Source: Candidatus Sumerlaeota bacterium
GTDB lineage: Bacteria > Sumerlaeota > Sumerlaeia > JAFGJS01
Direction of reading: 5' to 3'
Length of the DNA: 31,025 nucleotides
Assembly (NCBI GenBank): GCA_016928995.1
Contig: JAFGJS010000126.1
Coordinates: 1-31,025, forward strand
Numbering within the stretch: the stretch's first letter is position 1; every line of letters begins with the position of its first letter. A program made the translations under genes and the position numbers. The notes under the pieces are model-generated. The model did no database searches. It was not told the origin of the DNA and was given only the letters and a program-made list of their open reading frames with translations. Below are positions 10,056 to 26,334 of the stretch, in pieces.

Positions 10056-10271
10056 TCGAAGACTCCCCCAGGTGATATTGAAACTGCCGATAGTGAATAT
10101 CAGCATTGAAAACGATTTCATGACCAACTGAGAATGAATGCAAGGATTTCCTGAAAAAAATGCATTCTTAAGCGGCGCTTCAGTATGGACTAAAGAAAAG
10201 GCGGGAAATGATGATACTCCGCGTTTTTTCCTTTACCCGGACAATTCTCACGCCTTAAGGTTGCCCGTGAA

Positions 10272-10311
10272 ATTAACATTTTCTTAACTCCTCTTCATTG
10301 TTTCTTAAACA
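10272..10311 (+). promoter_or_regulatory. Pho-box-like array of four 7-bp repeats at 11-bp spacing
   Basis: Four 7-base units separated by exactly four bases each: ATTAACA (10272-10278), CTTAACT (10283-10289), TTCATTG (10294-10300) and TTAAACA (10305-10311). The 7+4 layout is that of PhoB/PhoP boxes, where each unit is one helical turn from the next. The first two units share TTAAC; the third is poor. It lies 41 bases before the Na/Pi cotransporter start, which makes phosphate-starvation control a natural reading. The unit sequence is not the E. coli CTGTCAT word, so the assignment is inferred from architecture and context. Confidence 0.55.
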
Positions 10312-10352
10312 GAGCGATGGGCTGACGGGCGAGGTTTGGGGCGGATTCATCT

Positions 10353-12011
10353 ATGACTCTTGCGCTTTTCTTTCAGATCTTATGCGAGGTTGTCGGTGGA
10401 CTTGGCATTTTCCTTTTAGGCATGAAAAATATGTCGGAGGGGATGCAAGCCGTGGCCGGCGAAAAACTGCGGCGTATGATCGGCTCGGTGACCAACAACC
10501 GGCTGCTTGGCTGTGGTGTGGGCACTGGAGTCACGGCCACGATCCAGTCGAGTTCGATCACCACGGTGATGGTGGTGGGCATGGTGAACGCGGGGATCAT
10601 GACGTTGTCGCAGGCGATTCCCGTGGTGATGGGAGCGAATATCGGCACGACGATTACTGGTTGGCTGATCACGCTGCCCATCGCGCATTATGGTTTGCCC
10701 GTGCTGGGCGTCTCCGCCTTTTTCTACCTCTTCAGCAAAAGCGACCGCATGCGCTTCATTTCCATGTTCATCATGGGATTGGGCATGGTGTTCTTCGGCC
10801 TGGTGCTGATGAAGGAAGGTTTCAAACCGCTGCGCGGACTGGAGTCCTTTCAAGTGTGGTTCCAGCGCTTTGAGCCTGGGATGTATCCCTTTGGCGCGTG
10901 GAAATGCATTCTGGTCGGCGCTGTTCTGACCGCCGTCGTGCAGTCTTCATCAGCGACGATCGGCATCACGATGGCGCTGGCAGCTGAGGGGATCATCTCC
11001 TTTGAAACCGCTGCGGCGCTGGTGCTGGGCGAGAACATTGGCACGACGATTACGGCTTACCTGGCTTCGTTGGGAGCTTCGACCAACGCCAAGCGCACGT
11101 CCTATGCGCATATTATCTTCAATGTCCTCGGTGTGCTTTGGATTTCCGCGCTGTTTCCGTATTACATCCGGTTCATCCCGCATCTGATTGGATTCTTTTC
11201 GCCCGGTTCAATGGCGAATATGAAAGCCGAAATCGCCGCGGTGCACACTTGTTTCAATGTGGTCAATGTGATTTTATTTCTGCCTTTCGTGTCGTATCTG
11301 GCGCGTTTTCTGATGTGGCTGGCGCCGGAGAAATCCAAGGAGAAACCGCATCTGGCCTTGCTGGATGTCCGGCTGCTTGAAACGCCGTCGATCGCGATTG
11401 AACAATCGCACAAGGCGATCCTGCGGATGGGCGACTCGGTGGATAAGATGATGCGGCACCTGCGAGGATATCTGACGAAGGAGAAAGACAAGGATCGGGC
11501 GATCAAGCGGATTTTTCAGCGCGAGGAAGAGCTCGATGTCATGCAGAAGGAAATCGTCGAATTCCTCAGCGGCGTGCTGGCGGGGAACGTCCCGCACAGC
11601 GTGATGAACGACGGCCGGCGGCAGCTGCGTTTGGCGGATGAATATGAATCGCTGAGCGATTATGTGCGCAATATCCTGAAGATGATGATGAAAATCGAGA
11701 AAATGGAGCAGGAAATCTCCGAGGATGGCATCCAGTGGCTGGTTGATTTGCACGACGCCGTGGCGGATTATGTGCAGTATATCAACAAAATGACGGCAGG
11801 GATGAGTCCGGATATGATCAGCAAGGCCCGCAGCCAGGGCGACTCGGTGGTGGCGCAGGTGAAACAATGCCGCCGGCGGCACCTGGAGCGTGTCGGCACG
11901 TCCCAGACCACGCCGCTGAAGAGTCTGATTATCACGGATATCTTGAACGCCTACCGCCGGATCCGCGATCATGCTTTCAACATCGCCGAATCCGTTGCGG
12001 GAGAAAAGTAA
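10353..12011 (+). CDS. Na+/phosphate cotransporter with C-terminal PhoU-like domain
   Basis: A 552-residue inner-membrane transporter of the Na/Pi-cotransporter (PNaS/NptA) family. It has the inverted-repeat signature of the family: QSSS at 65-68 with GANIGTT at 94-100, and QSSSAT at 197-202 with GENIGTT at 226-232. These loops form the substrate path. Residues ~350-552 are helical and charged, resembling the PhoU-like regulatory domain often fused to bacterial members. The start at 10353 has a GGGGCGG-like site eight bases upstream. It is a single gene behind a candidate Pho box, and no obvious terminator follows. Confidence 0.93.
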   Translation: MTLALFFQILCEVVGGLGIFLLGMKNMSEGMQAVAGEKLRRMIGSVTNNRLLGCGVGTGVTATIQSSSITTVMVVGMVNAGIMTLSQAIPVVMGANIGTTITGWLITLPIAHYGLPVLGVSAFFYLFSKSDRMRFISMFIMGLGMVFFGLVLMKEGFKPLRGLESFQVWFQRFEPGMYPFGAWKCILVGAVLTAVVQSSSATIGITMALAAEGIISFETAAALVLGENIGTTITAYLASLGASTNAKRTSYAHIIFNVLGVLWISALFPYYIRFIPHLIGFFSPGSMANMKAEIAAVHTCFNVVNVILFLPFVSYLARFLMWLAPEKSKEKPHLALLDVRLLETPSIAIEQSHKAILRMGDSVDKMMRHLRGYLTKEKDKDRAIKRIFQREEELDVMQKEIVEFLSGVLAGNVPHSVMNDGRRQLRLADEYESLSDYVRNILKMMMKIEKMEQEISEDGIQWLVDLHDAVADYVQYINKMTAGMSPDMISKARSQGDSVVAQVKQCRRRHLERVGTSQTTPLKSLIITDILNAYRRIRDHAFNIAESVAGEK

Positions 12012-23719: not shown

Positions 23720-23746
23720 ACATCGCTAGTTATGGCGATGTTTTTT
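23720..23746 (+). terminator. Rho-independent terminator after larB
   Basis: ACATCGC (23720-23726) pairs exactly with GCGATGT (23735-23741) across an eight-base loop and runs into six T residues. The right arm and loop lie over the last codons of the convergent kinase gene, which stops at 23730-23732. Confidence 0.75.
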
Positions 23747-26147
23747 CGAGATACCATCCGACGACGACGACTTTCCAGTGCGCCTCGTCGTTAAGTTTGA
23801 TTGTGTTCCAAGAAGCGATTTTGTGTATGATCTCGCTCGCCCAACCATCCCTGAAATAGGAATACTCGCCGGTGCCGTGAGGAAGATCGTTCATCTGGTT
23901 TGCGATCCGCCGCAGCTCGGGAAATTGTTCAAAAAATGGATCGGTGAAGATATTCAGATGGTGGCTTTTTCCATTGCTGTCGTAGATGATCATGCCGTCG
24001 GTCTGCAAGCACCACAGCTGATAGTTGTCCTTCAGTTTTCCGGCGTCCAGGTTGGAGCTGATGTAGATCTGCGGATTCAGCGCAACAAACAGATGACCCA
24101 TGATCTTGCCGTTTTCCAACAAGGGGTGCACCGCCACGGCGCAGGGCCGTTCGTCAAAGAGCATCGCTGCCGCGCCGATTTCCGGCTGGCTGGTTAAGGC
24201 CAGGTTTTGCATCGCCGGCAGCCCGCGGATGTTTTTATTCAGCCAATTGTGGCTCAGGCTATTATCTTCTAGGCTCTCCGCTGCGATCAATATTCCGTCC
24301 GCGCCGATCACTCCCGCCGCGGCCAGCCCGGCTTGCGTTTCCAGCAGCTCTCTGAGCGGCTGTTTGAATTTTGACGTATCGATCAGATCGGCGTCGGATA
24401 GCCGGTCCGCCGTTTGCGCCAGTCCGGCTTGCAAGGCCTGCACCTTGGATGTCAGGCTTTGTTGATACTCATAGGAATATTGGGAACTGCTCACCGCCTT
24501 CGTCATAATGTCACTCAACGCTCGTTGAGCCAGGACAAGCGCCGCCTGAGATTCCTCATGCGCTTTGTTCAGTCTCTTTTTTTCAATCGTTAATTCGTTG
24601 TGCGCTAATTCCAGTTTTCGCTTTTCCCAGTTCGCCTCCACTCCATAGTGCAGGGAGAATACTGCGCCGACGATGATCGCCAGCAGTGTCAGCGCCAGTC
24701 CTGAGAGCAAGGCTTTGTTGCGCTGCACGAAGCGCTGGAAGAGCTCGCACCGCGAATACGCATAAACGCTCACCGTGCGGCCGTCGAGATAGGCTTGAAG
24801 CTGTCGAGCCATTTCTCCGGCGTCCTTGAAGCGATCATCTTGATTTTTGCTCATGGCCGTGAAGCAGATCGCGGAAAGCTCCGGCGAAATGCCCTGGCAG
24901 ATGTCCGTGGCTTGCGGCGGCGGTTGCGTGCTCGCGGCCTGGGCCATGATCTGATGCACGTTTTCGCCGGTATAAGGCAATTGCCCCGTCAGTATTTCGA
25001 AGAGCATGACGCCCAGCGCGTAAACGTCGGTGCGCGCGCTGACTTCGCCGAATTTGGAGTCGATTTGCTCCGGGGCCATGTAGGAAGGCGTGCCCATGAT
25101 TTCACCTTCCAGCGTCAGATTCAGTTTAGATCCATCGCCCAGCATCATCGTGCCCTGATCCGGCGCGTCGTCGTCCCGGTTTAAATCCCGCTGACCGATG
25201 TATTTCGCCAGCCCCCAGTCGAGGATCAGATTCTCGCCGTATTTGCCAATGATCACGTTCGCTGGTTTCAGGTCGCGGTGAATCACGCCTTTGTGATGGG
25301 CGTAGGCCATGGCTTCGCAGACGTCGGTCATCGGCCGCAGCAATTTCAGGCGTTGTTGCAGGCGCGTCTCCGGCTTCGGCTCCTGCAACGTGTCTTGCAG
25401 CGCTTGCTCCATGGATTGGCCGCGCACATATTTCATGACATAATAGAAATTTCCGTCAGGCTTCAGTCCGAGCTCATAGACTGGCACAATGCCGGGATGC
25501 TCCAACTGACCCGTGATCCGCGCTTCATTCAGGAAGCGCGCCAGCAGTCGTGAGCTTTTGCCGTTCTGGATGCGCCGCTCCAGGATCTCCTTGATCGCCA
25601 CTTCGCGCCCGAGGCTGCGGTCGCGTCCGAGGATCACTCGTCCCAGGCCGCCCTGGCCGATCTGCCCGTGCGCAGTGTATTGCCCGGTGTAATGGCGAGC
25701 GGATGTCTTGCCGTTTCCATTGCCATCCTGGGATGAGGAGATTTCTTCCAATTCCTCGAAGACGCGCTGGCCATCGAGTTCCGTGGATTCCACGGATATT
25801 GTTTCGGCTTGCGCGGAGCTGTCTCCGGCGCTTTTGCCATTGCCGTTATCGTCGTTTTGCTCCAACTGGCCGTAGACGCTGTCGCTCAGCTTGGAGCCTT
25901 CCATTTTGAAAAAACTGATGATCGAGGATTGCGTCAGGATTTGCCGGGCGCTGTCGTACTGGCGTTTGGAGATATAGCCCAGTTCCACCATCAGCATGCC
26001 GGGATCGTGGCCGGGGCTGCGTTTCCATGCTTCGATCACCTCGTCGAATTGTTTATCGTTGATCAGATGCAAATCCACGGCGATTTGACAGATGATGGCG
26101 CGTTGCGCCAGGGAATCCCGGGTTGCCTTATCTTTGATTGTTTTCAT
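23730..26147 (-). CDS. Transmembrane Ser/Thr protein kinase with C-terminal Cache-like sensor
   Basis: An 805-residue Hanks-type kinase. I start it at ATG 26147, with AGGATG just upstream. Residues ~1-85 form a small helical domain (LHLINDKQFDEVIEAW, LGYISKRQYDSARQIL) like those before kinases in related bacteria. A Gly/Asn-rich linker (98-150) follows. The kinase core spans ~155-455: glycine loop GQGGLGRV (164-171), K186, HRDLKPAN (290-297) with D292, DWG (310-312) in place of DFG, and GTPSYMAPEQ (352-361). One membrane segment (~479-500) and a charged coiled coil (~507-550) lead to a ~250-residue extracytoplasmic domain resembling a double-Cache sensor. The catalytic residues are complete, so it is likely active. 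Ligand and targets are unknown. Confidence 0.9.
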   Translation of the reverse strand: MKTIKDKATRDSLAQRAIICQIAVDLHLINDKQFDEVIEAWKRSPGHDPGMLMVELGYISKRQYDSARQILTQSSIISFFKMEGSKLSDSVYGQLEQNDDNGNGKSAGDSSAQAETISVESTELDGQRVFEELEEISSSQDGNGNGKTSARHYTGQYTAHGQIGQGGLGRVILGRDRSLGREVAIKEILERRIQNGKSSRLLARFLNEARITGQLEHPGIVPVYELGLKPDGNFYYVMKYVRGQSMEQALQDTLQEPKPETRLQQRLKLLRPMTDVCEAMAYAHHKGVIHRDLKPANVIIGKYGENLILDWGLAKYIGQRDLNRDDDAPDQGTMMLGDGSKLNLTLEGEIMGTPSYMAPEQIDSKFGEVSARTDVYALGVMLFEILTGQLPYTGENVHQIMAQAASTQPPPQATDICQGISPELSAICFTAMSKNQDDRFKDAGEMARQLQAYLDGRTVSVYAYSRCELFQRFVQRNKALLSGLALTLLAIIVGAVFSLHYGVEANWEKRKLELAHNELTIEKKRLNKAHEESQAALVLAQRALSDIMTKAVSSSQYSYEYQQSLTSKVQALQAGLAQTADRLSDADLIDTSKFKQPLRELLETQAGLAAAGVIGADGILIAAESLEDNSLSHNWLNKNIRGLPAMQNLALTSQPEIGAAAMLFDERPCAVAVHPLLENGKIMGHLFVALNPQIYISSNLDAGKLKDNYQLWCLQTDGMIIYDSNGKSHHLNIFTDPFFEQFPELRRIANQMNDLPHGTGEYSYFRDGWASEIIHKIASWNTIKLNDEAHWKVVVVGWYLEKTSP

Positions 26148-26334
26148 CGAAAACATCCTGTGAAACGTTGTTATGCATGGAGAATCACAGCGGAAAGCGC
26201 CTGATGGCGCGGTTTCCACCCAAACGGCATAGACAGAATCTCTTTGCTTATCGGCAGCCTGAGAAAATTGATGAGGATGAATGTCGGCGCAGGGATCAGG
26301 CGCCGCGTTGGTTTATAGCAATCCCGATATAATC

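Follow-up and report, generated by a model that had tools for sequence, protein, structure and literature searches.

A candidate Pho box with a TTAAC-type word before a Na/Pi cotransporter gene in an uncultured Sumerlaeota lineage

Introduction

Tandem repeats with a spacing of about 11 bp are common among the binding sites of OmpR-family regulators. In Bacillus subtilis the PhoP box is built from TT(A/C/T)ACA repeats at 11-bp spacing, the word being TTAACA. The established form of the Pho box is an 11-nt direct repeat with 7 conserved and 4 less conserved positions (PMC4415409), and within the PhoB family the word varies with the DNA contacts of the regulator (PMC4415409; PMC3973317). The E. 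coli PhoB box consists of CTGTCAT repeats, i.e. 11-nt direct units in a 7+4 layout, and the PhoP box of Streptomyces of 11-nt direct repeats of GTTCACC (PMC4415409). The cyanobacterial PhoB, SphR, recognizes CTTAACCT repeats with a TTAAC core and a period of 8+3 = 11 bp; these boxes stand before pstS, sphX and phoA (PMC1906773).

Here we analysed a window, i.e. the whole stretch of 31,025 nucleotides, from a Candidatus Sumerlaeota bacterium (contig C12 of a 161-contig, 4.55-Mb genome). It carries a tandem array with TTAAC cores in front of nptA. In a limited body of literature accessible without subscription no description of a Pho-box word was found for this lineage, nor for Kiritimatiellota, Lentisphaerota or Planctomycetota. 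The array is most likely an operator of an already known kind, a Pho box, with a different word in a lineage for which no description was found. It would thus supply a Pho-box word for an uncultured lineage and, through it, for the other three phyla.

Results and discussion

The array before nptA

The array spans 10272-10311 on the plus strand. Unit 1 (ATTAACA, 10272..10278) and unit 2 (CTTAACT, 10283..10289) are 11 bp apart and have exact TTAAC cores. TTCATTG (10294..10300), the third unit, is in register and degenerate, with mismatches at three of five core positions. Unit 4 (TTAAACA, 10305..10311) is 22 bp from unit 2 and has a single core mismatch. A spacer of 41 bases (10312-10352) separates it from the ATG at 10353, the start of the presumed target gene nptA (10353..12011, plus strand). 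By its domains the ORF encodes a Na/Pi cotransporter (PF02690, Na_Pi_cotrans, E 7.6e-62) with a C-terminal PhoU domain (PF01895, E 2.4e-11). Two or more direct repeats of roughly 7 bp, set 11 bp apart, thus precede a phosphate gene. The initial annotation had listed the four words in exact 11-bp register and the 41-base gap to a phosphate transporter, and both were confirmed in full. It had also counted four units. This held for units 1 and 2, which are exact, and for unit 4, but not for unit 3: the array is three units plus one degenerate slot. Probably, unit 3 is a weak or empty slot, and unit 4 may overlap the -10 region instead of serving in the Pho box.

The 11-nt direct units in a 7+4 layout are as in E. 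coli; the word differs, TGTCA being TAACA here, and Arg201 of E. coli PhoB is Ser in the PhoB of this genome. An E. coli-type CTGTCAT word was not found upstream of its phoB, pstS and nptA, where the best TGTCAC pair had 4/12 mismatches and the best TTAACA pair 1. The Streptomyces box shares the 11-nt direct repeats and has a different word. B. subtilis shares both the TTAACA word and the 11-bp spacing, the regulator being that of a Firmicute. Judged by its letters, the word of the nptA array is nearest to that of SphR, which has the same core and period. Individual SphR sites, for instance TTTAACCAaacCTTTACTAgggCTTAACCT, closely resemble those seen here. SphR belongs to another phylum and, despite its CTTAACCT word, reportedly retains the contact residues of E. 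coli PhoB (PMC1906773).

Like arrays in the same genome

In one run contig C157 carries phoB, phoR, pstS, pstC, pstA, pstB and phoU. The encoded PhoB has an OmpR/PhoB effector domain and matches E. coli PhoB (1GXP) with an E of 1e-22. Two promoters of this cluster have three units on an 11-bp grid. That of phoB, located between an apparent tRNA gene and the phoB start codon, reads ATTAACG cttt CTTTATC tctt CTTTATA, that of pstS ATTAATG gaat CCTTATA ttct CTTTACA. The genome possesses PhoB/PhoR and further Pho genes bearing like boxes. Between pstS and pstC (L150:10028-10165) lies a G+C-rich palindromic stretch, possibly a processing or attenuation hairpin or a REP-like element.

Other phosphate genes were without such arrays. 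No convincing box was seen upstream of the second nptA (contig C3), either by inspection or with a profile derived from other genomes; the second Na/Pi cotransporter with a PhoU domain, L151:3771-5558, directly follows an apparent recO and has no Pho box. Two alkaline-phosphatase-like (phoA-like) genes also had no convincing box upstream, and PhoD is absent from the genome. Just past the stop codon of a phoA-like gene the pair TCTAACA tatc CTTAACA is present at exact 11-bp spacing (G000:C32:12350; L011:1501). No same-strand ORF of at least 80 aa follows it in the stretch read, and it could serve a small or non-coding gene as its Pho box.

Conservation in relatives

The class comprises 39 genomes, the family of the present genome standing alone in it. 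In 52 pstS/phoB upstream regions of the class, own genome left out, 8 exact YTAAC pairs were counted at 11 bp compared with a mean of 0.03 at each other spacing from 6 to 45; allowing one mismatch, the figures were 20 and 1.35. For example, the pstS array of G006 reads TCTAACC gaat TCTAACA atcc CCTAGTC gtcc TCTAGTC and that of G014 TCTAACA gttt CCTAACA tctg CCTGCTT ggat CCTAGCC. We then inspected 80 nptA orthologues from named genomes of Planctomycetota, Kiritimatiellota, Lentisphaerota and Verrucomicrobia, again leaving out the own genome. Exact YTAAC pairs at 11 bp numbered 17 here, compared with a mean of 0.08 per other spacing, and additional maxima appeared at 22 and 33. When all 5-mers before the nptA orthologues were tallied, CTAAC recurred at 11 bp more often than any other (11 loci).

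Word and spacing are thus kept before orthologous Pho genes, i.e. phoB and pstS in the class and nptA in other phyla. The comparison of related promoters that had been proposed at the outset bears out the 11-bp YTAAC excess before all three genes, with one exception: L041, the nearest nptA orthologue identified (60% identity), lacks an 11-bp pair upstream. Because L041 has no pair, and neither the phoA-like genes nor the second nptA of the own genome have a convincing box, regulon membership varies by gene. In one Kiritimatiellia and one Lentisphaerales MAG the nptA array (L076, L082) and the phoB array (L243, L253) are identical in sequence but lie on opposite strands. There, nptA and phoB appear to be divergent neighbours with one common Pho box of at least four units.

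Proposed action of the array

Four features are observed directly: the units, the register in which they stand, a cognate phoBR-pst-phoU cluster whose phoB and pstS bear like arrays, and the recurrence of word and spacing before phosphate genes of relatives. They support the initial suggestion of a Pho box whose word departs from that of E. coli. That it is the Pho box of an unstudied lineage stands in so far as the word is not that of E. coli; the word itself has a precedent in the close cyanobacterial SphR word. We consider it quite likely, on the strength of these sequence features, that the own phosphorylated PhoB uses 10272-10311 as a Pho box, binding there under phosphate limitation and raising nptA transcription. 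Binding at this array, activation and phosphate as the signal are predicted steps. The kinase PhoR would phosphorylate PhoB when phosphate is limiting. Phospho-PhoB would then bind head-to-tail on tandem 11-bp units with the consensus (A/C)TTAAC(A/T) N4, occupying units 1-2 together with unit 4. Bound PhoB would recruit RNA polymerase, and transcription of the Na/Pi cotransporter gene would go up.

PhoB might also repress or fine-tune nptA from the same Pho box and turn a low-affinity carrier off, leaving uptake to Pst when phosphate is scarce. Such an action would be a variant of the Pho-box explanation rather than an alternative to it and its probability overlaps with the one given above; by itself we consider it unlikely. 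NptA-type carriers often are the low-affinity partner of Pst, and this speaks for it. So does the failure to find a -10 element at activator spacing: over all sites there was no peak at a fixed distance after the array and none was clear for nptA; on inspection, some genomes had a plausible -10 element about 10 bp past the last unit before pstS/phoB, without an overall peak. Against repression stands the layout, which resembles the pstS/phoB arrays that PhoB activates in known systems, a likeness that does not distinguish the sign of regulation here.

Chance and specificity

Could the array be a chance AT-rich promoter stretch in a G+C-rich genome, i.e. two TTAAC words which happen to be 11 bp apart and serve no regulator? 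When 10129-10352 was shuffled with its dinucleotides preserved, 6/5000 shuffles contained an exact 11-bp YTAAC pair and 1/5000 three of four units as good as those before nptA. These figures are optimistic as the word was taken from the same sequence. The counts of spacing in relatives and a profile from foreign genomes share this bias only in part. The profile was built from nine sites of other genomes, the own genome being excluded; these sites were chosen by YTAAC/TTWAY-type matching and are independent of the own genome, not of the word. Among about 428,000 positions of the own genome it ranked the pair before nptA within the top 7.0e-6, the phoB triplet likewise within the top 7.0e-6 and the pstS triplet within the top 4.7e-6; the best profile length was two units for nptA and three for the other two genes. 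In the short upstream regions of nptA, phoB and pstS, scores this high would arise by chance with a probability of 0.002-0.003 each. These figures are conservative because the background consisted of own-genome stretches enriched for TTAAC-like matches.

Bare consensus scans of the own genome with TTAAC-N6-TTAAC or with three TTWAY units were not specific, most matches being AT-rich and unrelated to phosphate. Exact TTAAC-N6-TTAAC occurs at three places in the 4.55 Mb, the nptA array among them. The three-unit TTWAY scan had phoB among 3 perfect and pstS among 20 near-perfect matches. As a test, the genome-wide scan suggested in the initial annotation therefore fails, and it does so through too little information in the word rather than by evidence against the box. 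A match on contig C5 was considered as a fourth site and rejected as it lies within an ORF on the opposite strand. Scanning the own genome with a three-unit sequence profile recovered phoB and pstS and nothing else; both were training sites, their E values exceeded 1, and nptA was missed, probably because unit 3 is poor.

The scattered consensus matches, the poor unit 3 and the closest nptA orthologue without a pair speak for a chance arrangement. The rarity in shuffles, the rank given by the foreign-trained profile and the like arrangements before the own phoB/pstS and before nptA orthologues of other phyla speak against it, and we regard coincidence as improbable. It is highly improbable that the array is a tandem target of some other OmpR-family regulator encoded in the genome: further Trans_reg_C regulators are present (contigs C128, C49) and such spacing is common in the family, but the same word precedes the own phoB and pstS, whose expected regulator is PhoB, and phoB, pstS and nptA across relatives.

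Box dialects and the recognition helix of PhoB

If the array is a PhoB-operated Pho box, its word is one of several in the class. E. coli-like TTGTCAC/CTGTCAC arrays occur in families f5 and f13 (four units before pstS in G019), the word CTAACA in f2, f7, f8, f9 and f10, and TTAACA or TTTATA in f1 (the own family), f4, f6 and f12. The recognition helix of PhoB reads DTH(I/V)KRLRQK in the TGTCAC group, DV(H/Q)IV(G/S/A)LR(K/R)K in the CTAACA group and DVH(I/V)(R/N)(S/A)(V/I/L)RKK in the TTAACA group. The difference resides in residues 200-201 of the E. coli PhoB numbering (H198 begins HIRRLRK). Pontiella sulfatireligans F21, a relative in culture, has QIVGLRK in the helix of its PhoB. In the E. 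coli complex Arg201 forms a specific hydrogen bond to guanine (PMC3973317). It is structurally sensible that Arg201 is lost where an adenine has replaced the guanine of TGTCA.

Tentatively, we propose that residues 200-201 set the dialect, with Lys/Arg-Arg for TGTCAC, Val-Gly/Ser/Ala for CTAACA and Arg/Asn/Gln-Ser/Ala for TTAACA. Regulator and operators would have switched together inside this one class, and this pair of residues alone might predict the box of unstudied phyla. Arg201 would pair with the guanine of TGTCAC. In the first set of genomes, at two mismatches or fewer, KR helices went with TGTCAC in 8 cases and with nothing else, R/N/Q[SA] with TTAACA in 8 and V[GSA] with CTAACA in 15; ties and no-calls are excluded from these counts and the threshold was chosen after the following test of 32 genomes. 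In the present window it was reached in 1/168 word-by-segment tests.

For the test the helix-word prediction was written down beforehand and 32 further genomes were scored by a pre-set rule of 3 mismatches. The R-type genomes gave 5 CTAACA, 2 TGTCAC, 1 TTAACA and 2 without a call, contrary to the prediction. Several of these calls were near-identical (e.g. CCGATCACGCCACAAACAT) and resembled coding sequence of the upstream gene, probably phoU. At 2 mismatches few calls were left: V-type genomes had 2 CTAACA and 2 ties, R-type genomes 1 TTAACA and 1 TGTCAC. A PhoB tree calculated with the helix columns removed, poorly supported at its base, could be explained with just two word changes and two helix changes, and therefore the many genomes represent few events. 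Further, the contact residues reported for SphR together with its CTTAACCT word would count against a one-residue rule. Because of the few tree events, the outcome in the 32 genomes and the SphR report we hold the link as a hypothesis. If true, the phosphate regulons of many uncultured phyla would be predictable from the PhoB sequence, and the class would be a natural experiment in which a global regulator and its operators changed specificity together. In a MAG labelled Nitrospinaceae OFTM379 (L104/G088) the best PhoB shares 64% identity with the own PhoB and clusters with it and with G005, far from the place expected by the label; misbinned contigs or a transfer may be the reason.

Other observations

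At G000:C25:25477 (L157) ATTTACTCACG is repeated at 11 bp beside an apparent DnaA ORF (MPINIVRRKG... IWQKALELFRPQVDPKNFETWLKPTQF), perhaps as an origin element. Identical copies of TCAACGGGCTGTTAAC at four places of the genome (contigs C49, C61, C68 and C103) are a sign of a dispersed repeat. Within the window, 23730-26219 encodes a large protein that has a Ser/Thr kinase domain and weakly matches a Cache domain.
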